Source: Agapetus fuscipes
Taxonomy: Eukaryota; Arthropoda; Insecta; Trichoptera; Glossosomatidae
Length of the DNA stretch: 64,000 nt
Assembly: GCA_951799405.1 (NCBI GenBank)
Contig: OX637343.1
Span: 2,666,001-2,730,000 of the forward strand
Direction of reading: 5' to 3'
A program made the position numbers and the translations under genes. The notes below the pieces were generated by a model. It was given only the letters and a program-made list of their open reading frames with translations, was not told the DNA's origin and did no database searches. Below are positions 2,461-59,331 of this stretch, one piece after another (the stretch's first letter is position 1; every line of letters begins with the position of its first letter).

Positions 2461-2530
2461 ATGCCTGAATAGGCGAAATATAGGAGAAATCAGGAAGAAT
2501 AATCGGTTTTAATTTTTTGTTTCATTTCAG

Positions 2531-4210
2531 ATTTGAAGGATAAAATGGATTCAACTGACATTAAATTAGGAATAGGGGATGATTCCAAAATGCAGAACTA
2601 CACATCAAATAGAGCCTGTCCTCGCAAGTACTTGTGTGACCAGTGCTCCTTCCAAACCTGCCGACTTAAACGATTCACAAGTCACAGGCTGTCTCACTCG
2701 GGACATCTACCGTTCAAGTGCGACAAGTGCGACTTTAAAACTGCTCACTACAGTCATTTAAACATGCACAAGAGATCTCACACGGGAAAGAACATGCACA
2801 CCTGCAGCATGTGCACTTATACAACGTCTTCTAGGGGAGTTTTAAAAACGCACATGTTTATGCACACGGGAGAAAAACCTTTCACTTGTGAGACTTGTGG
2901 ACATAAGACTGTATCTATACACAATCTAAGGTTGCATAAAGCGACACACAGCTCAGAGAGACCGTTTCATTGTGATCAATGCAGCTATAGTGCCAAATCC
3001 TTATGCGGTTTGAAAAATCACAAACTGAGGCACACAGATCTGAAACCGTTTACTTGTGACAAGTGCCCCGAGAGCTTTAAATCAGCGTCTAGACTGAGAT
3101 ACCATCAAAGATGCCATTTTGATCTTAATAGCATCGTGCACAAAGAAGAGTTTGAAATATCCAATCATCACTCATTACTTCAACATCAATGCGATATATG
3201 TGGGTACAAGCAGCCTTCCCCAGCAGCTATTGCAGTGCACATGAGAACTCACACGGGAGAAAAACCATATGCTTGCAGTCAATGTGACTTTGCGACCTCG
3301 CTGAAATCGACTTTGAAAACACACATGTTCATTCACTCTGGACTAAAACCTTATAAATGCAAAGATTGCGAATACGCTACTAGAACATCGTCACAACTAA
3401 AAAAGCATGTTTTGAAACATTCCGGGGAAAGACCGCACGCTTGTCCACATTGCAGCTACACTGCTGCGCTTCTGGCTACTTTAAAATTACACATTCGCAC
3501 ACACACCGGGGAAAAACCGTACGCATGCGATCAGTGTGACTACAGCTGTTGCACTAAGAGTGCCATGAGGTGTCACAGAAAGACGCACAGCTTAGATAAA
3601 AAGCTTTCATGCAATCACTGTGCTTACAGATGCAATACACCAAAACAAATGAAGTGCCATATGAAAGCACATGAAAAAGCAAACAATAAACAAGCAAAGA
3701 CAAGCAAAAAACTTTCTAAAGCGTCGATTATTAAAGAAATTGAAAAATTATGTCAAAATTATGATCAGGATGATTCACTAGAAGATAATTGTGTCAGTGA
3801 TTATGAATCAGTTGATCTGGACGACACATTGCTAGTGATTAAAGAAAAGCTTTCATCAGCTGAGACAGACGTAAAAGATGAAGAACTTTGTGTTAAACAA
3901 GAAATTTTAGACATTGACGAATCATGGAAATTGGGTGAATGCGCTATAAAACCTAAAGAAGAAGTAGATGTTTGCGAAGTCAAAAAGGAAGAGACCTGTG
4001 AAATTGATGGTGCGATTGGTGTCCAAGTTGATGATGTGGCTGTGGAAAAAGACGACAGTAAAGATTTCCAGCCTCTTGATGATGTCCCGCTGTTTGAAAT
4101 GAAGAAAAACAATTTTAAATCGATGGATGAACCGTCACAGAGCCATGTTGAAAAGATTGAAGTTACAGAAAAAACAAAAAATATTAAATATGATTCTTAT
4201 AAAAAATCAG
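2531..4210 (+). CDS. zinc-finger gene exon A (fingers 1-12 plus acidic linker)
   Basis: Twelve Cys2-His2 fingers in order, for example CDQCSF, CDKCDF, CSMCTY and CETCGH in the first four. After finger 12 comes a Lys-rich stretch (KANNKQAKTSKK), then about 160 residues dominated by Asp, Glu, Ser and Lys with VKKEE/IKPKEE-type patches. The patches could be SUMO-type or acidic effector regions, but that is inference. Translation from 2533 needs TTG, so the ATG at 2545 is the safer start unless an upstream exon is joined. Confidence 0.85.
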
Positions 4211-5867
4211 GTAAGATAAAATACGCGTTTGGGTTATTACTGTAACTACCTACGTTGCCATTCTGGCCAGAGACTCCAGATTTGTCTCTATTTCTTACTA
4301 TCCCTTCATACAACTTTGTCAGCTTTCCATACATTCCCTCGATTTCACATTTCATCAATCTAATTGAGCCATATTCTTGGTCTTCCCTTTCCTCTTACCG
4401 CTTTAATATACCCTCTTTTAATACACTTTTATTATTAGTAGGAAATGAAACAAACCTTGTTTCCTGATTGCGATGAGTATAATATATCCTTGTCTGGTTT
4501 AGTTAACATACCCTTCACTAAGTGAATGCCTGTGCAATCACTGCTATTATTGTTCATTTGTTAAATTTCGCAAACGGAGGGATATGTTTAATAAGATTCT
4601 TCTGGTTTGTCTGTTTCTTCCTGGTCTCCCTTGAAGAGGAAGGACAGACATTTCGTTCTAGTATCAATGGACATTCCCAGGATATTTTGGAGCCTTATTT
4701 CTAGCCTGGCCCTTGTGGTCTGTATGCTTATCATATTTTTGTTATTAAATAGTTAGCTTTGTTTTAGGTTTTGGGAACACTTCAAGAAAACCTGGCATGC
4801 GAAAGAAAGAACACTACGGGCCAAAGTCCCGTAGAGTGTTTTTATGTGATCAGTGCTCATACAGATCTTGTCGAGTCAAAGAGTTTGAACTTCACCGCTT
4901 GTCCCACGATGGCCATCAGCCGTTCGCTTGCTCCGAGTGCGACTTCAAAACTGCTCACGAAAAACACCTGACCACGCACAAGAGGATACACCAAGGGAAG
5001 AACTTGTATTCCTGCACAATGTGCACTTTCAGCAGCGCTTCGAGTGGCGCTTTAAAGACCCACAGGTTCAGGCACACAGGAGAGAAACCATTCACTTGTA
5101 AAACGTGCGGATTCGCAACTGTCACGATTCACAACTTGAGACTTCATGAAGTCATGCACAGCACAGAGAGACCCATAACCTGCGACCAATGCAGCTATAC
5201 CTGTAAAAGAATAGGCGATTTAAAAAGTCACAAGCTGAAACATATGAAATATAATTGTGGGAAGTGTACAAAGAGCTTCAGAAAGAAATCCTTGTTAGTT
5301 AAACATGAGACATTGACGCACACAAAATTTAACCATTCGGATAATGCAGTAGATAAAGCATACTTTAAATGTGATAACTGCACGTTCATCTGCACGGATA
5401 AGAAAGCATTGTTGGAACATACTCGAAGTCATTCCATGAAGAAAAGTTTTCCTTGTGATGAGTGCAGCTTTTCAACAACTACAGCTTTCTCTTTGAGAGC
5501 TCACAAACTGATCCACCGTGAAGTGAAACCTTTTAAATGCAATCAATGCGATTACTCATCCCGAACTAAATCCTTACTAAAGAAGCACGCTTACAAGCAC
5601 ACTGGGTTCAAACCGTACTCTTGTCCTCATTGTGATTATCAATGCACGCACGGAGGACTTATAAAAGATCACATTAGACGTCACACAGGAGAGAAACCTT
5701 TCGCCTGTGATGAATGCGAATACCGTTCTGGCACTCTGAGTTGTCTGAAGATCCACAAGTTGGTTCACAACCCTAATAAGCCTCTGTCTTGTGATCACTG
5801 TGAATACAGATGCCATTTGATAAAGCACATGAGACTGCATATGAAAACTCACAGAGATGATGATTAG
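2545..5867 (+). CDS. C2H2 zinc-finger protein, 24 fingers in two homologous exons
   Basis: This is a predicted nuclear DNA-binding protein; the specific gene was not recognised. Exon A (2531-4210) has a good acceptor (polypyrimidine then CAG at 2528-2530), and the first ATG in frame is at 2545. Its donor is CAG|GTAAG at 4210/4211. Exon B starts at 4768 after GTTTTAG and ends at the stop in 5865-5867. Exon A ends in phase 1 and exon B restores the frame exactly, giving 921 aa. Residues about 29-376 hold fingers 1-12. Residues about 377-556 form a Lys-rich then Asp/Glu-rich linker. Residues about 577-918 hold fingers 13-24. Many linkers are HTGEKP-like. The two 12-finger arrays align finger for finger, so exon B looks like an exon duplication. 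If the intron is not removed, exon A reads on to a stop at 4243-4245. An upstream exon outside the recognised sequence is possible because exon A opens with an acceptor, also in phase 1. Confidence 0.85.
4211..4767 (+). other. intron of the 24-finger gene
   Basis: A 557-nt GT-AG intron with donor GTAAGA and acceptor TTTGTTTTAG. It carries no zinc-finger remnants and no repeat I recognise. Retention would add 11 residues to exon A and then terminate. Confidence 0.8.
4768..5867 (+). CDS. zinc-finger gene exon B (fingers 13-24)
   Basis: The exon opens with about 22 basic residues, then twelve fingers, each aligning with its counterpart in exon A (CDQCSY, CSECDF, CTMCTF, CKTCGF and so on). The inter-finger spacer after finger 6 is long in both exons, another sign of common origin. 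Finger 6 has an atypical HETLTH ending. The stop follows the tail HRDDD directly. If used alone, ATG 4797 would give 356 aa, but the in-frame splice from exon A is the better model. Confidence 0.85.
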
Positions 5868-7460: not shown

Positions 7461-7909
7461 GTCAACGACGTTAGCCATGTTGAAAGCACCGGTTCCCATA
7501 GATCACCGAAATTAAACAACATTGGGCGTGGTCAGTGCTTGGATGGGTAACCGCTCAGGTACATCGCGTGTCGTTGGCATCTTGGACCGGTCCGTAGTCC
7601 GTAGTGGCGACACTTCGGACTCGTAAATGGAAGGTTGTGGATTCGGATCCCGGCAGAGCACAAAAATATACCATTTATATTTTGAATGTGCTCTTCGCTG
7701 GGTTGAAAAATTCATAAACCTTTACCAATGACCGGTCACCAAAGGTCCATCCAGCCTTACAGCAACTGGGTCTTGCTTGAGTATTGGCGCTTTGTAGCGA
7801 CGACCAAGCTCGTACACCTCTGCGGCACTACAACAAGTGTCATAGACCCCTAGAGTCTTTAGAATCTAGGGAGTCTCCCGCACAGGATTTCTTAAAAAAA
7901 AAAAAAAAA
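7461..7909 (+). mobile_element. composite 5S-tRNA SINE with poly-A-type LINE tail
   Basis: The order is: 5S-rRNA-like head (7461-7578, with the GATCACCGAAATTAA and CTTGGATGGGTAACCGC words of the 5S internal promoter); tRNA-like part (about 7586-7655, A-box CGTAGTCCGTAGTGG and B-box-like GGATTCGGATCCC); body ending in GACGACCAAGCTCG; then a tail matching the LINE end at 15990-16103 and A16. ORFs across it are artefacts. Confidence 0.85.
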
Positions 7910-8270
7910 GATTATTAAAATATTCATAAGCACACAGCGCTCTTTGGGACATAAACCAAGGTGAAGTATTCCATAGTTCAGACTGTTCAGCTAAGCCACT
8001 GACTTAATTATGCTATTACAGACGATTGAGTTCAAAATAATCACAAAATTCAATGAAAATTCTGAATTATTAAGCGTCACAGTTCTATGTAACTAGGATC
8101 TTTACCAATCAATAAAAAATATTAGCAGAGTCCCTACAAAGCATCATTGAGAATAAAATATTGTTAAATAAATAAAGATAATTTATTTGATAACTTTGAC
8201 AAAAGAGCGCGATTCTTGTGTGTGTCACTCCTCAAGGGCCCAGTTACTGACGATGGAATGGAATATTTAA
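7910..8270. other. intergenic, nothing recognised
   Basis: AT-rich spacer of 361 bp between two composite SINEs. No ORF, TIR or RNA gene could be supported. Confidence 0.5.
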
Positions 8271-8705
8271 GTCAACGACATTAGCCATGTTGAAAGCACC
8301 GGTTCCCATAGATCACCGAAGTTAAGCAACATTGGGCGCGGACAGTACTTGGATGGGTGACCGCTCAGGTACACCGCGTGTCGTTGGCATCTTGGACCGG
8401 TCCGTAGTCCGTAGTGGCAACACTTCGGACTCGTAAATGGAAGGTTGTGGATTCGGGTCCCGGCGGAGCACAAAAATATACCATTTATATTTCGAATGTG
8501 CTCTTCGCTGAGTTGAAAAATTCATAAACCTTTACCAAAGACCGGTCACTGAAAAGGTCCATCCAACCTTACAACAAAACAACTGGGTCTTGCTTGAGAA
8601 TTGGCGCTTTCTACAGCGACGACCAAGCTCGCAGAGGGCTCTTGAGGTGTGATACACACAAAAACAGCGCTCACCAAATAAATCATCCTAATATTATTAT
8701 TTTTT
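8271..8705 (+). mobile_element. composite 5S-tRNA SINE with ATT-repeat LINE tail
   Basis: Same head and body as the copy at 7461, but after GACCAAGCTCG it continues into a different 3' module, GAGGTGTGATACACAC...CAGCGCTCACC, ending AATCATCCTAATATTATT. That module matches the LINE 3' UTR at 23563-23640. The 5S segment covers about 8271-8389. Confidence 0.88.
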
Positions 8706-9074: not shown

Positions 9075-9692
9075 CAGCCATACTCAACCTGCGGCCTGGC
9101 AAGCTTTACTGTGCGGCCCGCCGACGTGATTTACAAAATCTGGCATGCTATATTTCGTAGGACGTAGAACGTGGACTGGTCCGTAGTCACTGAAAGGTCC
9201 ATTCAACTTTACAACAACTGGGTCTTGCTTGAGAATTGGCGCTTACTACAGCGACGACCAAGCTCGCAGAGGGCTCCCGAGGTGTGATACACACAAAAGC
9301 AGCGCTCACCAAATAAATCATCCTAATATTATTATTATCACCTTTTTCATGCATTGTCTTCTTTTACGTTCTCTTTGTAGGTATATCCCATTCTTTTAGA
9401 ATCTCCTCAAAGTGTGAATCTTATATAACCTTGCAACTTAGATTATTATCGCGGATTTGCCATTGGATCATAATAGAGTGAGTAAACTAACATGAATTGA
9501 TCTAAAAAATTGATTAGATCTAGATTTTTTTTTTATTTTTGTTTTATATTTGTAGGGAGGCATTTTAAAATTACGTGGACAAAATATGCTTTTGAAAATT
9601 ACGTGTCTACCCCCCCCCCCCCCTCGATGACATCTTTTGGTTATACCAGTACAGTGTCGTGGCCCGAAGACAAAAAAGGTTGAGTATCATTG
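9075..9692. mobile_element. hAT-like element, 618 bp, inside the TTAA MITE
   Basis: The ends CAGCCATACTCAACCT and AGGTTGAGTATCATTG are inverted repeats (14 of 16 match). The element is flanked by a perfect 8-bp duplication tgctaaac at 9067-9074 and 9693-9700. It has no transposase and itself contains a SINE piece (9174-9345) and a run of C at about 9610-9622. Confidence 0.85.
9174..9345 (+). mobile_element. SINE 3' part, internally deleted
   Basis: ACTGGTCCGTAGTC of the tRNA-like head is fused straight to CACTGAAAGGTCCATTC of the body, so the middle is lost. It carries the ATT-type LINE tail. It is a third nesting level, within the hAT inside the MITE. Confidence 0.75.
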
Positions 9693-14230: not shown

Positions 14231-14827
14231 CTACGTTGCATGTCCAGAGGTGTCTGGGCTCTCAGATCTTCGCAGCCAAATGTGGTATGATCCCGAGATG
14301 GCCGCTTTTGTTAGTCTTTCCAGAAATCCATTTATTTGGGATCTATTCAGTCCCAGATCCTTAAGGAAAGTATATACCGATTTGGCTGGCAGTCCTCTCG
14401 CTCCCACCTCCACTGCATACAATCTTGTGGTATATCCATTATTTGTGATTTCATCCACTAGTCCTTTATACCTATTTAGTTTGTAGGCATGGTCCTTAGG
14501 GATGTTCATCTCCCACGGCACCGTCAATTCAACCAAGAGTACTTGCTTTAGTTCATTTGAGTATAGAACTATGTCGGGTCTCAAAGCCGTAGTGCATAGT
14601 TCTCCTGGGAAAATGTATCGTCCTGTGGTGGAATCCATCACAAGCCTCCAGTCCTTTGCCTTTTTTATAATGGAAGTCTGGGTCCTGGCCCTTCGCTCTC
14701 CCTTTTCTCCAGGCTTAACAAATTTTATTTTTTCAATGGACTCTTTTTTTTTTTTTCTGACTTTTTTCAATGGACTACTGTGAAGTTTTCTGTATCCGTT
14801 ATACCACAAAAGAGATTTGGCAAACAT
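14231..14827 (-). CDS. LINE C-terminal ORF with endonuclease-like domain, 198 aa
   Basis: Likely the end of a retrotransposon polyprotein, not a host gene. After a basic start, residues about 55-165 show WRLVMDSTTG, TTALRPDIVLYS, VLLVELTVPWE, and then VEVGARGLPAKS. The spaced Asp (RPD) and Glu-Leu-Thr (VELT) next to a hydrophobic strand resemble a PD-(D/E)xK-type nuclease core as in restriction-like endonucleases of non-LTR elements; this is inference from pattern. A second, worse copy with the same 3' UTR lies at 34500-34810. The ATG at 14827 may not be the true start because the element is truncated. Confidence 0.65.
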   Translation of the reverse strand: MFAKSLLWYNGYRKLHSSPLKKVRKKKKESIEKIKFVKPGEKGERRARTQTSIIKKAKDWRLVMDSTTGRYIFPGELCTTALRPDIVLYSNELKQVLLVELTVPWEMNIPKDHAYKLNRYKGLVDEITNNGYTTRLYAVEVGARGLPAKSVYTFLKDLGLNRSQINGFLERLTKAAISGSYHIWLRRSESPDTSGHAT

Positions 14828-15118
14828 TGTGTCTTCATTAAAATCAAGTCAGTTAACATACCCATAATCTTTTTACAACTAAATAATCATATGTACATTA
14901 AAATTTAGACATAATTTTAATATTATATTCTTTAAAAAAAAATCATCCAACATGACTGTCTATGGTATTCCGTGTAATACCATCTTCTACCAAACCTAAA
15001 AACATGAAAATAAGAAGATTCAATTTGCGTAAGAATATCCTAGTGATTGTTGATTTCAATTCCCCACACATCAACTCTAAAGTAACAGTATAATATGCTT
15101 TTCATTGATTTAGGAGTG

Positions 15119-15744: not shown

Positions 15745-16103
15745 GTCCTCAAAGTTTGAGTGAATGTACTTTTGGAGTGGTGGCACCAAGGGCATGAAAA
15801 GCGACTGCCACCAGTGGTTCCAGAGATTGCTGACACCAGTCACAGCAACAGAAAGTCTCAAGACCAATCTGCCATGACTCATTCCTTTGCCAAACTGCCC
15901 GTTTATGGAATGATCTACCAGTATCAGTGTTCCCTTCCCTATTTAATCCGGTTTTATTCAAAACCAACACCAATCGCCACTTCCTTGCAGCGCCTCACGA
16001 CAGAAGCAACAACACAAGCAACACCTCTGCGGCACCCTTCCAGGGTGACATAGACCCCCAAGACTTTCAAGAATTGGGGAGCCTCCCGCACAGAATTCCT
16101 TAA
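15745..16103 (+). mobile_element. LINE 3' end with poly-A, partner tail of SINE
   Basis: One frame ends ARLWNDLPVSVFPSLFNP then LFKTNTNRHFLAAP, the usual C-terminus of a Jockey/CR1-like reverse transcriptase, and reaches TAA just before A12. The last ~75 bp (ACCTCTGCGGCAC to GCCTCCCGCACAG) closely match the tails of the SINEs at 7461, 50909 and 58165. The coding part is frameshifted upstream. Confidence 0.75.
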
Positions 16104-16310
16104 AAAAAAAAAAACTGTTGACGGAATATTTTGTGGCGCCCTTGGAGTGGCAATATTATGAAACGGACCAATGAAAAAAGTCTTCAGTCAGATTCATAAT
16201 CATCATATCTCTGCTATTTGCCATTGTAAAAATGGAGTTTATCTGTAAATAAACATAGGGAATCAATTGCTCCACAAAATCTGTTATTGGAGGCATATTC
16301 TATACGGTTA

Positions 16311-16489: not shown

Positions 16490-17640
16490 GAAAGAGTTAA
16501 AGCAGAAAGCAAATATAAAGGAGTTATGATACTTTACAAAATTCCTCGACAGAGAGACGTCACAGTCTGAGACCAACAAGTTGTGGAACTTTGTTTACAA
16601 TTATCATTATTGGGTTAAAAAAAGTTTCATTAAACAGCACACAGATGGCATCGTACATTTGATTTCTTACATTTCAAACATGTATTGTATAAAATATTAT
16701 CATCGTAATCAAACGGTGTATGTGCAGAGAGCATCTTGATGATATAAGTGCTGTTTTTGTGTGAATCACATCTGAAGGAGTCTTGCTCAGAGGCTGATTT
16801 AAAGCATCAATTTGTTTGTTGTAAGGCTGGGTTATCCGAGCTTAGTCAACCGTTCGAAAGAAAAATAACAAGAATCTGATTTGAATTTCAGCTGTTGGGT
16901 ACGACACTAACGTAAAGTGAAGGATGAAGTAAGTTCTCCAATGAATGGTTCGTCTAACATACAATTTTTTTAATGAATTTTAATAAGTAAAGAATCTTAT
17001 TTAGCTGTGGAGTGAATACGACTAATTAAATTAGATATTATTTTATAAAAATAACTTAACATGTTTACATCTTTCAATAAAACAATGTTTTTTAATCGAT
17101 TCATTTGAAATCTTACATGATTTCCACGAATTGATATTGTTCCTAAAAAACAAAACTTATGCACTATCTCATAAAATGGTTTTGAAACTTAAATGTTAAC
17201 TTACAAGAAAAAATGGCTTGATCCTCCCTTCCCATATACATATAATTAATATTATACCTAACTATATATCTTATATACATTGTTAATTTGTTTTTATAAT
17301 CAAAATAAAGTAAAATTATAATCAACGTTAAGTCCAACATGTAACATTATGCTTGGTTACGCTTAAAAATATTTCAATCAATTTCAACCATAGACAGAGT
17401 TTTAAAAACCTTATCGTACTATCAACATTCCCATGTCTCAATTTAACACAGTTATTTAGTTATTATTTGCTTGCTGGTACTATGATTTTGGTTTTGAAAC
17501 AGGAAATTATTTCTGACACCTTTGATAGGAACAAGCTGTTTTTCTGGCTTTGAAACCAACTGTTCTACAGGTCATCTTGTAAAATTCCACTTTTGATAGT
17601 TCAATGTGGTGTCAATTTTTGTTATTAAAAAAATCACTTC
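16490..17640. other. intergenic, nothing recognised
   Basis: AT-rich. No gene, TIR or known repeat could be supported over about 1.1 kb. Confidence 0.5.
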
Positions 17641-18389: not shown

Positions 18390-18682
18390 GTACATATTTT
18401 GTTGTCGTCGAAGGGGTCACATGTGTGCGAAACTCATTTTTTTTACAGGTAAGAGGGTCAGTCTTTTGCAAACCACTCCTGTTGATGTTGGGGTTTCCCA
18501 GCCAGCAACCAGGGGGCTGGTTCTCATTTCTTGTGAATGCTGAGTAAACATTGCCGGTATTTTATTTTGGGTTTGAAACAAACATCGAAACGGGAAATCA
18601 TTTGACATCCTTGGTTGGTATCGGACCCTTGTCCTTGGCATGGAATGCAAGCATTCTACCGACTGAGCTATCGACTTATAAT
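18390..18682 (-). mobile_element. tRNA-derived SINE 2, single
   Basis: Read on the minus strand, the head is tRNA-like: GTCGATAGCTCAGTCGGTAG, GCTTGCATTCCATGCC, then a B-box region. The body contains GAAATGAGAACCAGCCCCC and ACCTGTAAAA. The family recurs at 23700-23938, 31230-31470, 36765-37065 and 47777-47950. It also looks like a tRNA gene from one end but lacks a complete cloverleaf. Confidence 0.8.
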
Positions 18683-22938: not shown

Positions 22939-23309
22939 TCTATTCCTTTTGAATCAATTTTGGTCGGTTATTTTGTACAATTTGGGCAAATTAGTGAAAC
23001 ACTTAAGGTGGAGCGAGGAGAAATGTCATTAAGTATAATTATCACTCCAATAGACAACGGGGACGCGCAGGACATCATAGACAATAAGCACACGACTTTC
23101 CTGCGGAATTTTATACCTACCATGACAATTTCACCAATGTTATTTACATTTCTGTCTATGGTAATGGCCTTCAATTTTTGACAGCTGTCATGTATGTTGG
23201 TGTTTTTTTTATTTGGCCTGATTTTTGTTTTCGTTTTATTCAATTTCTATTTTGGCCTCAATCCAGAATTTCAAATGCCATACTATTAAAATATCTCAGT
23301 TATAAGAGC

Positions 23310-23650
23310 TCTTCTTGAATATAAAGTGACGTTAAAAATTGAGATAGATTTGAGCCGCCAAACTCTCAGATCTGCAGGGTGTGGGGTGGTTGACTTAGTC
23401 CAGCCGTCACGTCAGACACGCACTAATTTTGGGGACCGTGCTTTCCGGTTTGCGGGCCCAATGGAGTGGAACAGACTACCACCTAATGTGAGGAAGGCAG
23501 AAACTGTTGGTGTCTTTGAAGGAGCACTAAAGACGCATCTTTACAAAAAATCTTATCTGTGATTTGAGAGGGCCCTTGAGGTGTGACACACACAAAAACG
23601 GCGCTCTTCAATTATGTGTACCTTATAAATAAATTATCCTTGTATATTTA
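23310..23650 (+). mobile_element. LINE 3' end, donor of the ATT-type SINE tail
   Basis: The open frame ends with TNFGDRAFRFAGPMEWNRLP, NVRK, FEGALKTHLYKKSYL and a stop at about 23560, a typical non-LTR reverse transcriptase C-terminus. The next 60 bp (GAGGGCCCTTGAGGTGTGAC, ACACACAAAAACGGCGCTC) equal the last module of the SINEs at 8271, 32833 and 43650. Fragments of the same LINE are at 34975 and 36190. Confidence 0.82.
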
Positions 23651-23699
23651 TATAAATATATTCAAATCGTGTGATATTTACATATAAACGCAACTAAGC

Positions 23700-24181
23700 T
23701 ACACATATAGTGTAACTTCTTGCCTGCGTTATCCCCGAAGGGGTCGCATGTGGTGTTTCGGGACCTATTTATTTTTACAGGTAAGGGGGCCGGCCTCACA
23801 CCAACCACTTTCAGTTGAAGTGGGGGTTTCCCAGCTCCCGGGGGGGCTGGTTCTCATTTCTTGTGAAGGCTGAGTAAACCTTTGAGATCGAACCCTTGCT
23901 CTCGGCATGGAATGCAAGCATTCTACCAATTGAGCTACCGACCTTTTTACGAGCTTGATCGTCGTTGCTACAAAGTGCCAATTCTCAAGCAAGACCCAGT
24001 TGCTGTTAGGCTGGATGGACCTTTGGTGACCGGTCATTGGTAAAGGTTTTATGAATTTTTCAATCCAGCGAAGAGCAAATTTGAAAATATATATGGTATA
24101 TTTTTTGTGCTCCGCCGGGAATCGAACCCACAACCTTCCCATTCAGAGTCCGCAGTGTTACCACTGAGCTACGGACCGGTC
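23700..24181 (-). mobile_element. dimeric SINE (SINE 1 followed by SINE 2)
   Basis: From 24181 downward: tRNA-Gln-like head (GGTCCGTAGCTCAGTGGTAA with ACTCTGAAT at the anticodon arm and B-box GGTTCGATTCCC), body to CGAGCTCG, then AAAAAGGTCGGTAGCTC opening SINE 2, which runs to about 23700. The junction GAGCTCGTAAAAA-GGTCGG also occurs at 47765-47785. No 5S head. Confidence 0.82.
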
Positions 24182-29873: not shown

Positions 29874-32800
29874 CTACCATCAAACATCAATGATACATTA
29901 GATGAGAGAGAACAGGAAGCTGGGGTTTTACGGATGCAGAAAATAATTTAAGGTGGACATTAGCCTTCTTGAAATGTCAGATCATCCGAGATCACTTGAG
30001 AGAATGCATCCCGATCTCTTATGGCTCAAAATAAGTCTTCCACTATTCTTATCCTAGACCTATCTCGTATGTTACGGAGCCATGTGACCTGCTTCTTGCC
30101 CACACCTCATATTCCCTCAACCAATCATTCGCCGTGTTGAAAAAATGGACAATATAAAAATATATTTATTACAAGCAGTTTATTCTCCTTAATAATGAGA
30201 CACCAACAAAATAGATTTTCAGCTCTCAAAAGATTGACACATACATAACATCGATTGCTCCAAGGAAGACAGCACTAAGTCAAAAAAGATAGTTTTGCAG
30301 GAAAGCCAATTGAATGTTATTTATTCCATGGAGTACAATGCATTAACTATTTTTACCATTAATTTATTAACGAATTTAAAAAGATAGAGACACGGCTGTC
30401 ATCTTGGAATGAAGATAATGATTTGTTACCTTCAGAAATGGAAATAAGTCAAAAACCTTAATTTCGGAATTACTTCCTTCTTCCTTGGAGCAGTTGACAT
30501 GTTGAGGCACAGCAATATATCATAGTAAGCCATTATCAAATTAAAAATGGAAATTGCCGACTGACTGCAAACATGGGTTTATAATTTGAATCAAACTTTT
30601 TGTGATTCACTATAGAATCAACTTGGCACAAATTGGAAAATAGATTTTCTCAGCGGGCAAATGTCATTGTCTGGAAGTGACTTTGGTCTTAGCAACAATT
30701 AACACAATGTTAAATTTGTTTCCTTTTCCCTGGCACCTGGATCATGCAATGTCACAATTTTGTCATCTATGGAATTTTTACCAAGTTCATTGGATGTCTT
30801 TGATACTTATGGAGATAAAATGAATGCCAAATTTTCAAATAGTGGAATACAATCCGGACAGGATCTAATGTTTAACGATACCAATTAAAATAGAGTATGT
30901 ATTGTCAAATTTCATACATCTAAATACACTTAACGTACTTCTCAGTGTTTTTATGCATCTACCACTAACAACCGTTGTGTAAAAAACAAATAAAAGTAAT
31001 GGCTTGTCCGTGATGACCGGTCCGTAGTTCAGTGGTAACACTTCGGACTCTGAATGGAAGGTTGTAGGTTCGAATCCCGGCGGAGCACAAAAAATATACC
31101 ATTTGTATTTTCAAATTTGCTCTTTGCTGGGTTGAAAAATTCATAAACCTTTACCAATGACCGGTCACCAAAGGTCCATCCAGCTTTACTGCAACTGAGT
31201 CTTGCTTGAGAATGGGCGCTTTGTAGCGACGTGGTAGAATGCTTGCATTCCATGCCGAGAGCAAGGGTTCGATCTGAAAGCTTACTCAGGCTTCACAAGA
31301 AATGAGAACCAGCCCCCCGGGAGATGGGAAGCCCCCACTTCAACTGAAAGTGGTTGGTGTGAGGCCGGCTCCCTTACCTGTAAAAATAAATAGGTCCCGA
31401 ATCGCCACATGCGACCCTTTCGGGGATAATGCAGGCAAGAAGTTACACTATATGTGTAGCTTAGTTGCATTGCGTAGTGTTGCTTAGTGTGCTTGTACTT
31501 GTATACTGCCATCCAGCTAGTGGTGTTTAGTATTTCCGCAGATGCGTCTTCACTCTGTTCTGTCTGTACACACTTCTTTCATCTCCTTGACATTCAATAC
31601 TCTCTTCATGCATACTCTTCTCTTCTTCTCACTGTGCAGATTTCGGTCACATGCAATCTCGCAGATTATTTAAAAAAAATAGATTTATGAAGGGGACTGC
31701 AGTTCATAAACTTGCTACAGCCTTGTTATTAAACAAATATTACTCTGTGACTTGTCAAAATGAATCAAGAGGGAATATTGCTGAGAATAAGTGTCATTAC
31801 ATGATGTCAGTATTCGCAGTTATAGTTCCTTACCCCGTTGTAGTGAGCAGAGGGCACATAGGTAGCTGGGGCGGCGCAGCGGGCACAATGCCTGCGCAGC
31901 GCAGGACGCTGGCGGGAACCTCCTCCACAGCGCACCGCAAACCTCAGCTCCTGGGGACAACAACAGTCATCAGCAATCAATGATAGCCAACAAATCATAT
32001 AAAGGATCCACAGCGGATCAGGAAACAACTTTGAAAACAAAAATAAAGTGTTTTCCAATTTGCTTCGCTTGTGTTGCAAAGATATATTGACATTTAAGGC
32101 TTATATTTAACGAACTTCCACAAGCAGACTTCCATCAGTGTGCCGAACTTGCCGCACAGCGCGGCACAGCGTGCGATGCAAATGTTTGTTTCGGTCGACT
32201 CACGCAAGCGAACAGCAACAAATTGTGCGGGAACATTCTAGCAAAGTTCGCACACAGCTGCGTACTTGTGCGCGCGCACTGTTCAAGCGGTGGACTTGTC
32301 TCGACGTGCACGCACGCGTGTTCACGAACTCAATCTTAGCTTCCGCTTCTCGATCGAAAACATTTGTATTGGATTGGAACAATGATAAAACTATAGAATT
32401 TATTCAAGCAATTGAAACGAATCCTGGTATTTTTGGTCTTAGCAAAAGAGTGACATTAATGAAAAAAATCAGGCATGTTTATTGATTTGTTATCTAAATA
32501 ATCAAGTATTATTTTTTATACAATTTTAAAAAATACGCCACAAAATATATTCACAACAATACATTTTTTTCATTTTATTTTGTTGCTTTATGTTTTGGAA
32601 ATGTTTTTTTTCTTTATAATTATAGAATAATACAATGTCTAGAAAACCCCTGCCCTGCGCCGCATTGCATGGAGGGAGATTAGTTACCTGTCCCATTTCA
32701 CTACACAGCGACTGCCTGCCCTGCGCGGCATTCTTCTTGGAGTTCCAGCAGAACTCCAGGATGGCCACCAGGATGGCGAGGGCCAGGCCACACAGCAGCA

Positions 32801-35800
32801 CCACAAACACTCCACCTGCATCACAAACAGGGTTAATAATAATAATATTAGGATGATTTATTTGGTGAGCGTGGTTTTTGTGTGTATCACACCTCAAGAG
32901 TCCTCTGCGAGCTTGGTCGTCACTGTAGAAAGCGCCAATTCTCAAGGAAGACCCAGTTGTTGTAACGTTGGATGGACCTTTCAGTGACGGGTCTTTGGTA
33001 AAGGTGTTTTTTATGAATTTTTCAACCCAACGAAGAGCACATTTCGAAATTTAAATGGTATATTTTTGTGCTCCGCCGGGATTCAAATCCACAACCTTCC
33101 ATTTACGAGTCCGAAGTGTTGCAACTGGACTACGGACCGGTCCAAGAAATGCCAACAACACACGGTGTACCTAAGCGGTCACCCATCCAGGTAGCATCCG
33201 CGACCAACGTTTTGTTACTTAACTTCGGTGATCTGATGAGAACCGCTGCTTTCAACATGGTATCGTCGTTGACTATACCATATTGAAATAGGGTTCTTAC
33301 ATGACTTCAACAACTAGTTTCTAAACACCATTTCATTAGCTAATAAGCTCTGTCAGAGGAGTAATCAAGTCTCCTGTAGTACCTACACATTCATTTTTTG
33401 ACAAAATATAGGATAGATAGACCAAAACAGGGCCAGTGGCCAAAACCATTTCATATACTGTGGTGCATTGATTAACCACTTACCGATGTTCTGCACCCCC
33501 AGCGCGTTGGCCTTGGAATCCTTGGCCTTGTCCTCTCTGTTGCACACGTCGCCTGTGTTCTTCCACCACTTGTCGTAGAGGATCTGCACGGCGCCCTTCT
33601 CCTGCAGCTGCAGGATGGCCAGCGAGATGCGGTCTCTCCACGGACTGCCCTTGGCCGTGGCAATGCCATAGCCCTGACAAAACAAAAAAAATATCATGTG
33701 TAAGAACGCATTGAAGAGTGGCAATTGCCAAGTGAAGTACCACCATTAACTTATGATACCTGTCTGTGAACTAGAAATTATTTTAACGAAACAGACATTA
33801 TATATATCCGTTTCAACTTACTTACAAAAATGGTCATTAGTAAGAATGAGACCAAATAACTTCACAGTTGCATTTCCATGTCTGCGAAAAAACTCGGGCC
33901 AATGTAAAAACGTTTCTAGAAAGGTGGCAACAAAGGTGCGTACTATGCCTGAACCAGTCTGAACATAGTATGCATGCTTTATAAATCTTGTGATCGATAA
34001 AATTAAAAAAGGATTTTAAAAAATATAAAAAAAAAATTGTGCTCCTAATTATTTAGGTAAGAACACTTCTTTATCTTATTTCTCATTGCTGAGGGTTGTG
34101 ACTCACTTACAAAGATTTTTGATTAAATAGAGATTTGCTGCTGAATTGAATGATTGAATACTTCAATTACAGTTCTAGAGACAGTTGAATAAGACTGTTT
34201 TGTTAGTTAGGTTACCTTAGAGTCCAGCAGGCCGCCGACCTGCGTGAGGTTGCAGTCCCGCTGCACGCGGTGGTCCAGCATGGTGGACTCCATGAGGAAG
34301 GCGTAGCCCCCGCGCAGCACCCGCTGCACTCCCTCCTCGTAGCTCGACACAAACACACTGGGCTGGTGCGAGTCCATGTAGCGCCACATCTGCTTGTATA
34401 TGTCTATCTTGGAGTCCTGGAATGTTACAAATTGGTCTCAATCAACTCAATGGCTTAATTGGATGAACTTTGTTTGGGAGATCTGTAGGTACACAATTTT
34501 TGAAATAGCTAATCAATCCGCGGTCTCACCGAATCAGGTCTTTACTTTTTAGAAAATTCAAGACCCAAACTCAGGCCCGCCGCACAGAGTCAGGATGAGA
34601 TGGGAGTCACAGGACTTATGATCTGTCTCTGGTTGATTAAGGATCCTTTCGTCATGACAATGTACCCAATTCCTCCCAACTCATCCTTCCTCCCAATATG
34701 TAAAGTCTGACTCATTACATTGCATGCTTAGAGGTGTCCTGGCTCTGAGATCTTCGCATCCAAATGTGGTATGATCCCGAAATGGCTGCGTTTGTCTGTC
34801 TTTCCAGAAAGCCATTTTATTTATTTGGGATCTATTGGTATAAAACCATTAAAACCGAACCATTGTATAAAACCAGTTATAATATTGGCGGAGGCAAAAC
34901 AAACTTGCAGCATCGTAACATATTATCAGGCATACTTGTCAACCACAGAGCTGTCAAACACAACAGAATACTTAATTATTTAAAAACACTAATTTTGGGA
35001 ACTGTGCTTTCTAGATTGTGGGACCGATGGAGTGAAATAGACTGCCACCCAGAGTGAAGAATTCGGAATATACCCTGAGTACGAGTTGCAAAACTTGGGT
35101 ATTTAAGTAAAGTTTACGGAAAGTATTAAATAGTGGTTTTCCCCAAAATCTGTCATTTTTGTTTGTTTGAACTTGATTTTCTTCATCACTAACTCTTTTG
35201 CTAAGACCGTAAAGTATAAGAAACAAAAACAGCAGATTTTGGGGAAAATCACTCTTTAACCCTTTGGCTGCGGCTGGCATGCATAGATGTCATGACGTAA
35301 CTTGCATACAGTGCGGCTGGCATCTATACATGTCATCGAAGTTCAAAGCTTTCCCTGACATCGGTGTTCAAATTTTTCAAACTTTTTTATTGCTTACATT
35401 ATAGGTACACTAATAAAATCTCATATTATACATATTTTGAAAATATTATTTCTCAAATATTTCGTCAGAACAGATCGATCTCTTGTCCCGCGCGTGTGTA
35501 CCAATGTTTATAAACAAAATCCAGGCAAGTATACTCTATTCAGATAGGTATAACTGCTTACGTTTTTTGTTTTTTTGTAAAATAACTAATACATTTTTCT
35601 CTTTAGTGATGAGTAAAAAAAATTGTTTAAAACCTAATGGATATAAAATCTACTTATGGAATGTGCGTATAATATATTTTTTTAAGTAGTATTGTTGTGA
35701 TTTACTTGTTTTTATATAAAACAACAAGTGAAAACATGGGTTGAAAGTTTGTGATTTGTGTTCCTGGATCTATCTATCTATCTATAATCTATAATCTAAG

Positions 35801-38800
35801 TTGCAAGGATATATTCATTCAAAGCTCTCAGATGTATGCCCACAAACAAACACGTGTAGTTCGCGCTTACAAATGCTGATTGTGTACTTACAAATAAAAT
35901 CCAAACCTCAAATGAACATAAGCCCTGCAACTCTTGCCGACATTCCCTGAAACAGGGGTGACATTGGCAAAGTGAACCATTTTTTACAGTATGGGTGGTC
36001 AGCCTCATATCAACCTATAAGTCAAGGAATGGATAACTAATGAATATACTTTTTCATAAATTTTGAAGTTTCATCAAGTAATTAAGGTAGGAAATCAATT
36101 TATGTGTAAAAAAAATAACCTTAAAAAAGTAATCCGTTCTGGCAGTGCGTATGTAGCAAATAAATTCAGAATCGAAACGGTTAGTACTATCCGTTGTTGT
36201 ACTACTGTTGGCATTTTTAAAGGAGCACTGATAGCTTACCTTTATAAAATATCTCGCGGTAAGGAGGTGTGATAAGTACAAAAATGGCACTTTTTTACCA
36301 CATAGAAACTGAAATAAATCTTCCTCATATACAGGTACTGTAACTGTAGATGCAATTTGTCATCACTTTGTGGGGAATTTACGTGATGAGGCACAATAGC
36401 TTTGTGGTCTTACCCTGAAGAAGCTCATGGTGCTGCCGCCATGCAGAGTGCCGTACTGTATGACGGACTGTCCGGCCAGGTCGGCCACGGTCTCTATGGG
36501 GGCCACGGTCCGCTCCACGGTGAGGAAGGCTGCCAAGTTGGCCGTGTACGAGGAGATGATGATGAGGGTGAAGAACCACCAGATGCCGCCCACTATCCTG
36601 GTGGAGGTGGCCTGGAAACAATGAAAGCCAATAATAATGCAGATAGCGTCTCAAAGAAAGAACCACTTTTTATTTATAATTATTATATTGTAGATATTTG
36701 TAAAGAGCAGGTTTCTCTTATAGCATTTCATTAAGATACTCAAAACGCAACACAACAAAGCTACACATATAGTGTAACTTTTTGCCGCCTTATCCTCGAA
36801 GGGTTTCACATGTAGTGAGTGGAACCTATTTATTTTTACAGGTTTACGGCTTCACGCCAGCCACTTCAGTCGAAGTGGTGGTTTTCCAGCTCTTGAGGGG
36901 CTGGTACTCATTTATTGTGAAGGCCGAGTAAACCTTGCCTGTATTTTATTTTAGGGTTTGAAATAAACACCAAAACGGGAAATCATTTCTGACACCCTCG
37001 GTGGGAATCGAGCCCGGGCTCACGGCATGGAATGCAAGCACTTTCCAACTGAGCTATCGACCGGACAAAATTAAACTATTTAATTATATCTTTCACTCAA
37101 CATGATGCCATTGCGGAAGAAAGTTACATGAAAAGGCAAGTCAAGACAGTGTTCTCCACTTGCGTGTTTGAAATACAATCATGCTGGTCAATTCCTGTCC
37201 GGCCACTAGACCAAAAGTTTGACCCTAGTTAAACAGATATTGTTTGTTAATAAATAATTCATTAAAATAAATAAAAATGGAAATTTGAATACCTGTTTCT
37301 GGCCAGGCAAAAATAGGTTGTCCTTTTCAAAAATGTATTTAACCCTTTGGCTGCGGCTGGCATGCATAGATGTCATGACGTAACTTGCATACAGTGCGGC
37401 TGGCATCTATACATGTCATCGAAGTTCAAAGCTTCCCCTGACATCGGTGTTCAAATTTTTCAAACTTTTTTGTTGCTTACATTATAGGTACACTAATATA
37501 ATCTCATATTATACATATTTTAAAACTATTCTTTCTGAAATATTTCGTCAGAACAGCTCGATCTCTCGCCCCGCGCGTGTGTACCAATGTTTATAAACAA
37601 AATCCAGGCAAGCATACTCTATTCAGATAGGTATAACTGTTTACGTTTTTTGTTTTTTTGTAAAATAACTAATATATTGTTTTCTTTAGTGACGAGTATT
37701 TAAGTGAGTAAAAAAATTGTTTAAAACCTAATGGATATAAAATCTGGTTATGGAATGTGCGTATAATATATTTTTTTAATAATATTATTGTGATTTACTT
37801 GTTTTTATATAAAACAACAAGTAAAAACATGTGTTGAAAGTTTGGGATTTGTGTTCCTGGATAACTAATGAATATACTTTTTCATAAATTTTGAAGTTAT
37901 ATCAAGTAATTAAGGTATGAAATCAATTTACCTATGTATAAAAAAATAACCTCAAAAAAGTATTCTGTTCTGGCGGTGCGTATGTAGCAAATAAATTCAG
38001 AATCGAAAAGGTTAACAAAATAAAAAGATCACGCTATCTTCTTCCACAAATCTAAATAACTCTCCATCAGGGTGGGACTGGTATCGATGAGGCTGTTAAT
38101 TAAAAAATGTCTACCTTTGGGTTTAGTCCCGAGCCTTGCCTCAGGAATGTTCCCGTGATGAACCAAAATGAGTTGGAGACGGAGAACTGGTTGGTGACGA
38201 GACGGGACTCTCTGGCGCAGGGATGGGGGTTAGACCTGGAATAAATATTTATATCTCATATATACGATTCTCGTGTCACAGTGTTCGTGGTCACACTTCT
38301 CCGAAACGGCTTTACTGATTCTAATGCAATTTTGTACGCATTTTTTATAGGTATGAAAATCAGCCAATAAGTAGTTATATTTCATACAGTTATATGATTA
38401 AGAAGAGCGTACATAGATTTCTTCTCTAATTTTTCTCGTACTTTTTTATTATTTATCATAAAAAAATACATACTTTCTGAAGGATCAGCCTCATACCATG
38501 CCAACATACTAACATACCAACCTATCAGTCAAGGACCAGTCAAGGATGTAACATATATTTGCGATTAAACAATATTCCAGCTATATCAAAAGTTAAGGGG
38601 AAAAATATAAAAATATATTTTTGTTGATAACTAAAGCAACTTGACACTGGTGCCCCTGCTCTCCATGGGAATTCGCAACAAAGAAGAAGATGACTACAAC
38701 ATTGGTTTCCTTACCATTCATAGGGAGAAAATCTTGCCATGACAAACAGGGTGAATGACACTAAGATATACGCAGCCAGAACGTACAACCAGATCTCCAC

Positions 38801-41800: not shown

Positions 41801-44800
41801 GGACCAGCAGAAATGGCAGTAGTTGATCAAAGGAGACAAGACCATGCAAATTGTTGTGCTGATTGCTGTGATGATTATGATGATGACACAGTGAATAGCA
41901 GAGGAACCTCTGGTAAGGTAATATACACGAAGAAAAACTGTAAAAGGAAAGCTGTCAAGCTACCAAACACTCTTTTCAGCCCGGATTTTGGTACGGATCA
42001 CTCTCAGGTACAGGTCTGAGAATGTGATGTAGCATTTTGTTATCAAAGACCTGGAGAAATTACTTGTGTTTCTGAGTCAGACTCAGGAATCATATCCGCA
42101 CACACAACTGATCTTGAATATTTAATAAATGAAGAGTTTTATTTTACCTCAATGGTGCCTTTTTTGAGGAGAACATTGGAGCCTAGCTGATGGAACTTCT
42201 CCATTTGGTGCAGGGTTTCTTTGACTTTGTCTGAGTCCAGATCCACCAGCCGCCATCCACTCATGTTGACCCGGTTGAAGTAGAAGTCTTCAAGGTCAAA
42301 CAGTTCCATGTCCTGTAATAAGTACCTAATGGTTTAGTGAAAACGAATATCAAAAGCAGAGTATATGATTGAATGGATAGAAGATAGAGATGGAAGTAAA
42401 CATTGTTTGATTTGTTCAAAATAGTGTGATGGGATGAAGTTATTCTTGTAATAATTGATGTGAATGTGTTACTTTTTTAACAATAAATAGATTGAATAAA
42501 AAAAAATACTTACAAAGGAAGCAAACACATAGTGGTATCGATGGCTGTTCATTTGGAGCTGAAGAATCTGAAAGAAGAAAATATATTCTTTTTTAATTTT
42601 TCTTATAATGAAAAAAGAATTTAACTATCCCTATGTTACAAGGCGATTAAAATTAAATGAATGGGCTCGGCAAATTCCCATAGACAAAAAAATCTGATGT
42701 CCCTCTGCCAGGGTTTCTTGGAAAAGGGTTACCATTTTTTTTTTAATACAAAGAACAACAAGTATTGTTTATTCAAACATTGTTTTATGCAATAATACTA
42801 TGTAAAAATATAATCTTTTTTATTGGTTGCTAAGGATGCTGCATGTGTTGGTATGCGGCTGACCACCCATGCTGTAGAAAATGGTTCACTTTGACAATGT
42901 CATCCCTGTTTCAGGGCAGGTCGGCAGGAGTTGCAGGGTGTATGCCCATTTGAGATTTGGTTTTTATGTAGTAGGTTCACATGCGGCATATGCAAGCGTG
43001 AACTTGTACATGTCTGCTTGTGAGAATGCATGTAATGTGAATCCCCAATGTTACATATATTTGCAACTTAGATTAGATTAGATTAGGACCCTTCTCACTT
43101 AGACCTGTGACGTTTGTTTGTTAGAAAGAAGGCGCATTTCTTGGCTGCGTAATATAAGAGACTAGACTGGGATGAGACATGTTGGGGAGCTGGACTGGAA
43201 GTCTCATCACCACGGTAATTCTTACCTACCGAATATCGGTAATATTTTTATGAAGACTAATCAGCTGTTCACTTGCGGCCATTTTGGATTGACAGGTCTC
43301 CATACAAATATTACCAATATTCGGTAGGTTAAGATTACCGTGGTGATGAGACTTCCAGCCTTGTTCCTTGACGCGCAGGATAGCGAAGCCATTGTCAGTG
43401 CGGTTGACAACATTGGGGGGAATCTGATACAGTAAAAGAAGGAGAAGATGATGTAGGGACTCACCGCTCTGGTGAACTTGTGTATTTGTGCGGCGTCTGT
43501 GTCCACAATGATGTTGGTGATTTTCTTGGCCTTGACCTCCTGCAGCACTTCCCTGTAGGAGGCGGGGCTGTCTGCTCGCCTCACGTACAGCTGCACCCCC
43601 TGTCGGTCTAGGCCCTGGAATCTGAAGTGGTCTGAAACAAAGGAGGTTAATTATAATAATATAATATTAGGATGATTTATTCGGTGAGCGCTGTTTTTGT
43701 GCGTATCACACCTCAAGAGCCCTTTGCGAGCTTGGTCGTCGCTGTAGAAAGCGCCAATTCTCAAGCAAGACCCAGTTGTTGTAAAGGTGGATGGACCTTT
43801 CAGTGACCGGTCTTTGGTACAGGTTTATGAATTTTTCAACTCAGCGAAGAGCACATTCGAAATATAAATGGTATATTTTTGTGCTCCGCCGGGATCCGAA
43901 TCCACAACCTTCCATTTATGAGTCCGAAGTGCTGCCACTGGACGACGGACCGGTCCAAGATGCCAGCGACACGCGGTGTACCTGAGCGGTAACCCATCCA
44001 AGTACTATCCGCGCCCAATATTGCTTAACTTCGGTGATCTATGGGAACCGGTCCTTTCAACATGGTAACGTCGTTGACTTGACGTTAAATTCAACGGTTG
44101 TGATAAACACTCGGTGCAATGGCCGAGCTGCCTAAATCTATTTATTTTACAGGTGTTTTGTGTTTTTTTGTTTAAAATATTAAATATTCACTTTCACAGA
44201 CCTACAGTGAGCGACCGTGAAGACAGACATGTCACTCGCCTTGAGAATGCTTTCTTCTCGTTAAAGCAAATCGTTGGCAGATAAAAAGAGCTGCAAATAG
44301 ACGATGCTCTAACCCAGTGGTGGGCAAACTTTCTTAATAGAACGTTTAGGGAACAGAAAGTTTCAAAAATTCCAGAGGAGTGCCAGAATTTCAGGAAAAA
44401 TGCTACTTTATGTATACTTGTGGACCATCAAAATAAAAATATCGCGGGCTATATAATATTCTTGTCGAAGGATCGTCGGCGGGCCGGATTAAATGCTTTC
44501 GCGGGCCAGAGCTGGAGCGCGAGCCGTACTTTGCCCATCACTGGTCTAACCCAATGATTTCCAAAGTGAGCGCCACAAAATATTCAAAGGAAAAATTTCC
44601 ACTTTTTCAAGTAAGTCAAAAATTTCTGATGTTTTAAGGGTGCCGCAAAAAATAATCAATTATTTAAGGAGCTGCAAACCAACAAGATTGACGAGTTCTG
44701 GTCTAACTGGAAAAAACGCAAAAACAATCAGTTAATATATTATTCTTTCTGACTTACTGTTTCCCGTATCCTCATAGATGACGGCCACTCTGGTCCAGTT

Positions 44801-47519: not shown

Positions 47520-47950
47520 GACCGGTCCGTAGTCCATTATGCCGGCGGAGCACAAAAAATGTACCATTTATATTTTCAAATTTGCTCTTCGCTGGGTTGA
47601 AAAATTCACAAACTTTTACATTAAAGGGCTCTTGAGATGTGATACACACAAAAACAGCGCTCACCAAATAAATCATCCTAATATTATTTTATTATTATTA
47701 TTATAAGACCGGTCATCAGAAGGTCCATCCAACATTACAGCAAATGCGTCTTGCAGCGTTGACCAAGCTCGTAAAAAGTCCGGTCGGTAGCTCTGTTGGT
47801 AGAATACTTGCATTCCATGTCCAGAACAAGGGTTTGATCCCCAACGAGGGTGTCAGAAATGATTTCCTGTTTCGGTGTCTATTACAAACCCAAAATAAAT
47901 ACCGGCAAGGTGTACTCAGCCGTCACATGAAATGAGAACCAGCCCCCCCA
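47520..47950 (+). mobile_element. dimeric SINE with extra internal LINE tail
   Basis: SINE 1 head and body with an ATT-type tail module inserted at 47633-47702, body end GACCAAGCTCGTAAAAAG, then SINE 2 (GGTCGGTAGCTCTGTTGGTAG). The head has an internal deletion. Confidence 0.78.
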
Positions 47951-50908: not shown

Positions 50909-51222
50909 GACCGGTCCGTAGTCCAGTGGCAACACTTCGAAGTCGTAAATAGAAGGTTGTGGGTTCGAAATGGGTGCACAAAAAATACCATTTATATTTT
51001 CAAATCTGCTCTTCGCTGGGATGAAAAAATCATAAAACTTTACCAAAGACCGGCCACTAAAGGTTCATCCAGCTTTATAGCAACTGGGTCTTGCTCGAGT
51101 ATCTGCGCTTTGTAGCAACGACCAAGCTCGTAAACACCTCTGCGGCACTACAACAAGTGTCATAGACCCCTAGAGTCTTTGAAAGATAGCGAATCTCCCG
51201 CACACGATTTCTTAAAAAAAAT
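50909..51222 (+). mobile_element. tRNA-headed SINE 1 with poly-A-type tail, no 5S head
   Basis: GACCGGTCCGTAGTCCAGTG head, GGGTTCGAA B-box region (partly deleted), body to CAAGCTCGT, then CACCTCTGCGGCACTAC to A8. Confidence 0.83.
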
Positions 51223-58164: not shown

Positions 58165-58481
58165 TTTTTTTTTAAGAAATCCTGTGCGGGAGACTCCCTA
58201 GATTCTAGAGACTCTAGGGGTCTATGACACTTGTAGTGCCGCAGAGGTGTACGAGCTTGGTCGTCGCTACAAAGCACCAAAACTCAAGCAAGACCCAGTT
58301 GCTGTAAGGCTGGATGGACCTTTGGTGACCGGTCATTGGTAAAGATTTTTATGATTTTTTCAACCCAGCGAAGAGCAAATTTGAAAATATAAATGGTGTA
58401 TTTTTTGTGCTCCGCCGGGATTCGAACCCACAACCTTCCAATTCAGAGTCCGCAGTGTTACCACTGAGCTACGAACCGGTC
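58165..58481 (-). mobile_element. SINE 1 with poly-A-type tail
   Basis: Read from 58481: GACCGGTTCGTAGCTCAGTG, ACTCTGAAT, GGGTTCGAATCCCGGCGG, body, CAAGCTCGTACACCTCTGC and the tail to A9. Confidence 0.86.
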
Positions 58482-59095
58482 AAATATCAAATATAAGATA
58501 TATTTTTTTCGGAACAAATTAAAATGGATATTTCATTAGATCCATTAGTCTGAGACTATGGAGTTTTATTCGTGTTTTGTCATTTTTCTGGCCTCTTAAG
58601 TCGCCTTAATCGGGAGGCTTTCTTGCTGAGCGGACAAGAAAGATCTAAGTAAATAAAAAAAGAGTGTCATTTCATGAATCAAAATAATTAAATTACAAAG
58701 TTTTTATTACTATTATACAAAAAAATATGAGATCTTTAACATTTAAAAAAAATCTTTTAAGTGTGAGTAACATTCAACTACATTCAGTCAGGAATTATAA
58801 ATACATACATTTCAAGTGCTAATTACAGTGGTGCAAGGATCTTAATGAACTCATGTGCTATACAGAGCTACCAACTTAAAAAAATAATGTGGTCCGAATG
58901 AGACGTCATCCACAGTAAATCCCCGATTATCAGGGAATTTTAGTTAGTTTACAGCATTTGACAGCCACTTGGCAGGTCGAAGAAAGCACTAACAATACAT
59001 AATTTTTCATAAAAAAAATACACGCAAATGCACATTTATATGATATCAATATGTGAAAATATTTATGGTTGTGAAATTACTATGCTAAATTACTA

Positions 59096-59331
59096 GAGGT
59101 GTACGAGCTTGGTCGTCGCTACAAAGCGCCAATACTCAAGCAAGACCCAGTTGCTGTAAGGCTAGATGGACCTGTGGTGACCGGTCATTGGAAAAGGTTT
59201 ATGAATTTTTCAACCCAGCGAAGAGCAAATTTGAAAATAGAAATGGTATATTTTTTGTGCTCCGCCGGGATTCAAACCCACAACCTTCCCATTCAGAGTC
59301 CGCAGTGTTATCACTGAGCTACGGACCGGTC
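59096..59331 (-). mobile_element. SINE 1, tail lost after CAAGCTCGTACACCT
   Basis: Well preserved head (GACCGGTCCGTAGCTCAGTG, GGGTTTGAATCCCGGCGG) and body; the LINE-type tail is absent. Confidence 0.82.

Follow-up and report, generated by a model that had tools for sequence, protein, structure and literature searches.

A SINE core combined with 5S-derived heads and three 3' modules in 64 kb of a caddisfly-like genome

The window analyzed here, a continuous stretch of 64 kb, carries a minus-strand GRIK2-like gene, with matches running from 46977 to 29814. The joined GRIK2-like exons are 83% identical to a protein of the caddisfly Arctopsyche grandis over the whole 774-residue query (1508 bits), and the next entry in the list of matches is Bombyx mandarina (1350 bits). 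Given this similarity, the host is most likely a caddisfly, in agreement with the insect host supposed in an earlier note on this DNA. Two introns of the GRIK2-like gene hold a 300-bp direct repeat (35255-35554 and 37338-37637, plus strand, 96% identical). The window further contains three long C2H2 zinc-finger frames (2503-4245 and 4749-5867 on the plus strand and 21556-22953 on the minus strand, the last overlapping an 18-bp tandem array at 21734-21909), an inverted repeat whose 405-nt arms are 98% complementary and lie 583 nt apart (257-661 and 1245-1649), and a 205-codon open frame at 14231-14848 (minus) that gave no significant Pfam match.

Spread over the window are 11 clear copies of a SINE core of about 228 bp, which runs from GACCGG to CAAGCTCG and consists of a tRNA-like promoter and a unique body (Table 1; copies are referred to by the coordinate of their 5' end). 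Four copies carry a 5S head, six are headless, and one is a deletion derivative. The presence of one core with swappable modules is confirmed as an observation: motif counts, Rfam matches, and junctions all bear out the earlier description of a common core with 5S heads on four copies, six headless copies, and three different 3' modules (the positions 32833 and 43650 given in that description mark the lower-coordinate ends of the two 5S copies on the minus strand). When up to 3 mismatches are allowed, the motif GACGACCAAGCTCG has 12 occurrences where 1.6 are expected, and none of 100 shuffles reached 12. Ten of these matches fall inside clear core copies; the two outlying ones, at 13424 and 16837, are both on the minus strand with 3 mismatches each, and the motif is missing from copy 31015. 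At 16837-16850 (minus) a decayed CAAGCTCG-like motif is followed by a decayed tail-B-like stretch at 16777-16747 (minus); together they may be an old tail-B copy. All six headless copies have GACCGG exactly as their first bases (31015, 47521, and 50909 on the plus strand; 24181, 58481, and 59331 on the minus strand). Candidate target-site duplications flank several copies but are weak: compared with random flanks only 1 of the 11 falls below 0.05, namely 47521, which has an uncertain 3' end. In a search for relatives beyond the window, a 19-base pattern gave no match in viral contigs and one match in a bacterial MAG contig, and a 14-base pattern, too short to be informative, gave at least 120 stretches in viral contigs.

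Table 1. Coordinates of SINE copies, LINE-like remnants, and 5S matches in the 64-kb window
Feature	Position	Strand	Remarks
Mosaic copy, 5S head + tail A/poly-A	7461..7905	+	5S head 7461-7579; CAAGCTCG at 7805-7812
5S head + tRNA-like part + body + tail B (ATT repeats)	8271..8702	+	Rfam, alignments
Internal-deletion derivative	9173..9337	+	First bases of tRNA-like part fused to 3' body + tail B
5S head + tRNA-like part + body + tail B	32835..33273	-	5S head 33150-33273
5S head + tRNA-like part + body + tail B	43651..44078	-	5S head 43961-44078
Headless, body, tail A	50909..51217	+	tRNA-like part of TAGTCC type, as in 5S copies
Headless, body, tail A	58169..58481	-	tRNA-like part of TAGCTC type
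Headless, body, tail A	59095..59331	-	TAGCTC type; tail A stops after ~10 bp
Dimer	23687..24181	-	Core 24181-23950, TAAAAA linker, second SINE with body deletion
Dimer	31015..31471	+	Deletion across CAAGCTCG junction
Dimer	47521..47950	+	CAAGCTCG, TAAAAA, second SINE; 3' end not sharply defined
Second SINE alone	36749..37066	-	GTCCGGTCG on its 5' side
Second SINE alone	18401..18675	-	More diverged; no GTCCGG start
LINE-like remnant A	15900..16113	+	C-terminal frame RLWNDLP... to stop + poly-A; final ~80 bp = tail A match
LINE-like remnant B	23425..23614	+	C-terminal frame GDRAFRFAGPMEWNRLPP...LKTHLYKKSYL stop
5S match	8271-8389	+	82.2 bits, Rfam
5S match	44078-43961	-	79.7 bits, Rfam
5S match	7461-7579	+	69.2 bits, Rfam
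5S match	33273-33150	-	66.4 bits, Rfam

The four headed copies match Rfam positions 1-120 of 5S rRNA with 66-82 bits, against a gathering score of 38, and the window thus holds several copies with the 5' 5S rRNA head that characterizes SINE3 elements. In every headed copy, 5S positions 1-120 are followed by a short spacer (CATCTTG or CATTTCTTG) and then by GACCGG, the point at which headless copies begin; the 5S head stands in front of a retained tRNA-like part. Two sense-oriented 5S/tail-B SINEs stop about 20 nt upstream of two GRIK2-like exons (32812-32860 and 43630-43680, minus strand), so that their ATT tail and CCTAAT sit at the place expected for a branch point. With two cases, this placement could reflect target preference or chance.

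The promoter boxes of the tRNA-like part were scored against A- and B-box consensus sequences in five headless copies (the sixth, 47521, lacks the region) and the four headed ones. The A box is intact in 4/5 headless versus 0/4 headed copies and the B box in 3/5 versus 0/4, counts too few for significance. Three of the five headless copies have both boxes intact, spaced about 32 bp apart in 58481 as judged by eye. All four 5S-headed copies have a G-to-A change at the second B-box base, which is what replacement of the promoter by the 5S head would leave behind. The internal pol III promoter expected at the 5' end of a SINE is predicted here both from the boxes and from the 5S matches. As to a tRNA-derived head of the SINE2 kind, the boxes and their spacing fit one; ARAGORN called no tRNA in the tRNA-like part, and Rfam gave no tRNA at E ≤ 1 around copy 59331, so the label "tRNA-like" refers to the A and B boxes and their spacing.

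Directly after CAAGCTCG, tail A follows in copies 7461, 50909, 58481, and 59331 (about 10 bp only in the last), and tail B in copies 8271, 9173, 33273, and 44078. Both tails match the ends of LINE-like remnants in the window, as expected of SINEs that share a 3' tail with a LINE, and the earlier claim that one core carries two different LINE-like 3' ends holds. Tail A is 78% identical over 79 bp (E 3e-10) to remnant A at 16021, whose reading frame, RLWNDLPVSVFPS..., continues through to a stop and poly-A, and tail B is 87.5% identical over 48 bp (E 2e-12) to remnant B at 23567, in a match that starts a few bases past the stop. The remnants are termed LINE-like from their C-terminal reading frames: a Pfam scan gave nothing at E ≤ 1 for either, and for a third open reading frame in the same scan it gave a sub-threshold DUF1127 match only (E 0.19). 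Our impression is that LINE B is CR1/L2-like. Tails and LINE ends largely have hairpins in common. The folding z scores are -4.0 (7461) and -3.4 (58481) for tail A and -2.35 for LINE A, and in a hairpin consensus of tail A and LINE A (four sequences in the tail A fold analysis) 5 of 24 pairs are preserved via double changes; tail B (z -2.64) and LINE B (z -2.63) form the same hairpin. The tail of 50909 does not adopt the tail A structure (z -1.37), a LINE-like copy at 8241 does not adopt the B structure (z +1.27), and the overall RNAalifold covariation terms are unfavorable (+0.12 for A, +1.08 for B).

The third 3' module is a whole second SINE, which follows CAAGCTCG in 24181 and 47521; in 31015 a deletion spans the junction. 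The second SINE of dimer 47521 opens with GTCCGG after CAAGCTCGTAAAAA, like the free copy at 37062, and dimer 24181 has the same linker minus four bases. The GTCCGG start is found in one of the two free copies (present at 37062, absent at 18675). Dimers 24181 and 31015 have a deletion in the second SINE in common and so probably descend from one dimer master. The core SINE of 47521 has a deletion in its tRNA-like part and, in its body, an insert at about 47622-47704 (plus strand) made up of tail B only. This piece is 98.4% identical to SINE tail B over 64 bp and is cut a few bases from the core/tail joint.

These combinations recur: 5S head with tail B in three copies, headless core with tail A in three (one short), and dimer in three (one with its junction deleted), at separate sites and on both strands, and the earlier claim that the modules are multi-copy is upheld. 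The same note held that its modular model would fail if each combination proved to be a single rearranged locus; within the window this is true of 5S with tail A, seen once (7461), and of none of the other three. It is accordingly very improbable that there is no modular family and that nested insertions or single rearranged loci account for the combinations, even though the one-off 5S/tail-A copy and the tail-B piece in 47521, which resembles a nested insertion, speak for such an account. Pure nested insertion is rejected on the recurrent identical joints, and the account is largely refuted within the window.

The modules had been said to begin exactly after CAAGCTCG, and this is so in the 10 of 11 core copies that retain it, the exception being 31015, where the junction is deleted. 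CAAGCTCG is best read as the former 3' end of the core, with modules attached end to end, and GACCGG likewise as its 5' end, which received the 5S head. End-to-end joints at both core ends are compatible with template jumping, and juxtaposition followed by read-through is a live rival: the core would have inserted into the T-rich terminator that directly follows a 5S gene, the second SINE into the A-rich end of a core, and the fused units would have been amplified without any jump. The spacer at the 5S-core joint, CATCTTG or CATTTCTTG, could be leftover 3' flank of a 5S gene, and the dimer has an A-rich linker. By itself, however, juxtaposition leaves unexplained both the LINE 3' ends attached at an identical base and the mosaic structure of 7461, and we regard it as unlikely, though clearly worth keeping in view.

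Copy 7461 joins a 5' side of the 5S/tail-B type to a 3' body of the tail-A type. We chose 18 diagnostic columns that distinguish 8271, 33273, and 44078 (5S/tail B) from 24181, 31015, 58481, and 59331, leaving 7461 out of the choosing. In 7461, nine columns have the 5S/B state, all at or before 7688, and nine have the other state, comprising all eight from 7729 on and one at 7683. The order is 8-1-1-8, with a single column out of order, and this column, at 7683, fits the loss of a CpG. The breakpoint lies within the body, between 7688 and 7729. Over columns 1-106, the identity of 7461 is 96.2% with 8271 and 80.2% with 59331, versus 87.1% and 95.4% from column 100 onward (the two ranges overlap by 7 columns). 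The half-trees differ in the same way: in the 5' half all four 5S-headed copies group together against five headless ones (support 79), and in the 3' half the three tail-B copies group together with 7461 outside (support 96). Taken with the conflicting insertions described below, the diagnostic columns and half-trees indicate that heads and tails were reassorted via a switch inside the homologous body. A switch exactly at CAAGCTCG as the origin of the 5S/tail-A combination is rejected on the diagnostic sites and conflicting indels.

The insertions also bear on whether the copies could descend stepwise on one tree, with a core plus tail A gaining 5S (7461) and one 5S lineage then swapping to tail B. 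Headless, tail-A copy 50909 shares its tRNA-like variant with the 5S copies and might resemble the ancestor, and 7461, without tail B, could represent the ancestral state. However, 8271 is tied to 7461 by private insertions (GT at core columns 17-18, within the tRNA-like part, plus another within the 5S head), yet to 33273 and 44078 by others (G at column 166 and TC at columns 225-226) and by tail B. These conflicting indel sets speak against one single tree, as do the 83 of 325 informative-site pairs that show all four combinations, and we consider stepwise descent improbable. A stronger competitor for the origin of 7461 is DNA gene conversion or crossover in place of switching by a reverse transcriptase, a possibility of some weight that we nonetheless lean against and that would be compatible with our preferred explanation of the family. 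Copies 7461 and 8271, which have the same orientation and are 810 bp apart, have the two private insertions in common, but they still differ by about 4-6% in their common part, which makes a recent conversion unlikely. The whole mosaic is also flanked by a possible 6-bp duplication, AAGATT, which counts against conversion, although it is not significant.

The only visible reassortment, in 7461, therefore happened within the body, and the earlier proposal of repeated template switching at a fixed junction finds no support in the form given. Body type and tail type are linked in the remaining copies, so the constant junction is no sign of repeated switching there. The earlier interpretation as a whole is partly supported.

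We favor, as rather likely, a SINE family built on one pol III core, to which modules were added by template jumping and in which switching inside the body came later. A LINE reverse transcriptase engaged in target-primed reverse transcription would have jumped from the RNA on which it started to the end of another. In this way the core could have gained, at its 3' end, the 3' end of LINE A or LINE B or a whole second SINE and, at its 5' end, a complete 5S rRNA; joining at both core ends would make both of them constant joints, as observed. The 5S head would then act as the promoter of its lineage, with the tRNA-like boxes decaying. The LINE-type 3' hairpins on tails A and B suggest that the family can draw on two LINE machineries. 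The 5S/tail-A mosaic 7461 would have arisen afterwards, when switching took place between similar copies within the body. The window shows directly the modules with their exact joints, the matching of each tail to a LINE-like 3' end, and the mosaic; it is template jumping as the process, 5S-driven transcription, and the use of two LINEs that we infer. More tentatively, and less probably than not, LINE reverse transcriptases may habitually land on the two ends of the core RNA, in which case promoter (tRNA-like or 5S) and tail (from two LINEs or another SINE) would be drawn combinatorially, replacement of the tRNA promoter by 5S would be in progress, and switching inside the body would reshuffle heads and tails among live lineages.

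Lepidoptera are the sister order of caddisflies, and combinations of a single body with either a tRNA or a 5S head and with varying tails are already known there. In Helicoverpa armigera, the HaSE families are described as having one body under a tRNA head in HaSE1 and a 5S head in HaSE3, and in HaSE2 the HaSE1-type tRNA part and central domain with another 3' region, which comes from a mariner-like element; the 3' tail is LINE-derived, and the authors propose template switching to 5S rRNA (PMC3272025). The present SINE resembles these families in having one body, tRNA or 5S heads, varied 3' regions, and a LINE-derived tail, but in HaSE3 the 5S sequence replaces the tRNA head and here it stands before a retained tRNA-like part, and the HaSE2 3' region is mariner-like whereas the third module here is a whole second SINE (PMC3272025). 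In Plutella and Operophtera, PxSE4 and PxSE5 have a 5S head and body in common and different 3' ends, the tail of PxSE5 matching a LINE, and ObSE2 has a tRNA head on a PxSE4-like body; in the sections consulted, these three are without the stacked 5S and tRNA head and the dimer that the present SINE has (PMC8010984). 5S SINEs are listed from further Lepidoptera (PMC10886601). The HaSE and PxSE families were compared with the present SINE by their descriptions. HaSE1/HaSE3 and PxSE4/PxSE5/ObSE2 weaken the earlier suggestion that a tail-swapping insect set would itself be notable.

Vertebrate 5S-tRNA chimeric SINEs such as AmnSINE1 consist of a 5S part, a tRNA part, a unique central domain (Deu), and a LINE-type tail. 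The present SINE is AmnSINE1/DeuSINE-like in its composite 5S and tRNA-like head, found in 4/4 headed copies, and differs in its host lineage, in the several tails on one core, and in the dimer. Hagfish SINE chimeras are described as having arisen step by step, as SINEs and RTE-type elements exchanged heads and 3' parts through DNA recombination or RNA template switching, but these vertebrate elements combine a 7SL-derived head with RTE parts, in contrast to the 5S and tRNA-like heads of an insect SINE (PMC7245038). A limited literature search found no description of a stacked 5S and tRNA head in an insect. New here are the 5S head stacked on a tRNA-like part with decayed boxes, the dimer, and the mosaic. 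These features extend the head and tail exchange of moths to a caddisfly-like genome. The intermediates occur together within 64 kb, namely headless and 5S-headed copies, tails from two LINE-like sources, a dimer, and a mosaic, which makes the order of tail gain, 5S gain, promoter decay, and reshuffling testable.
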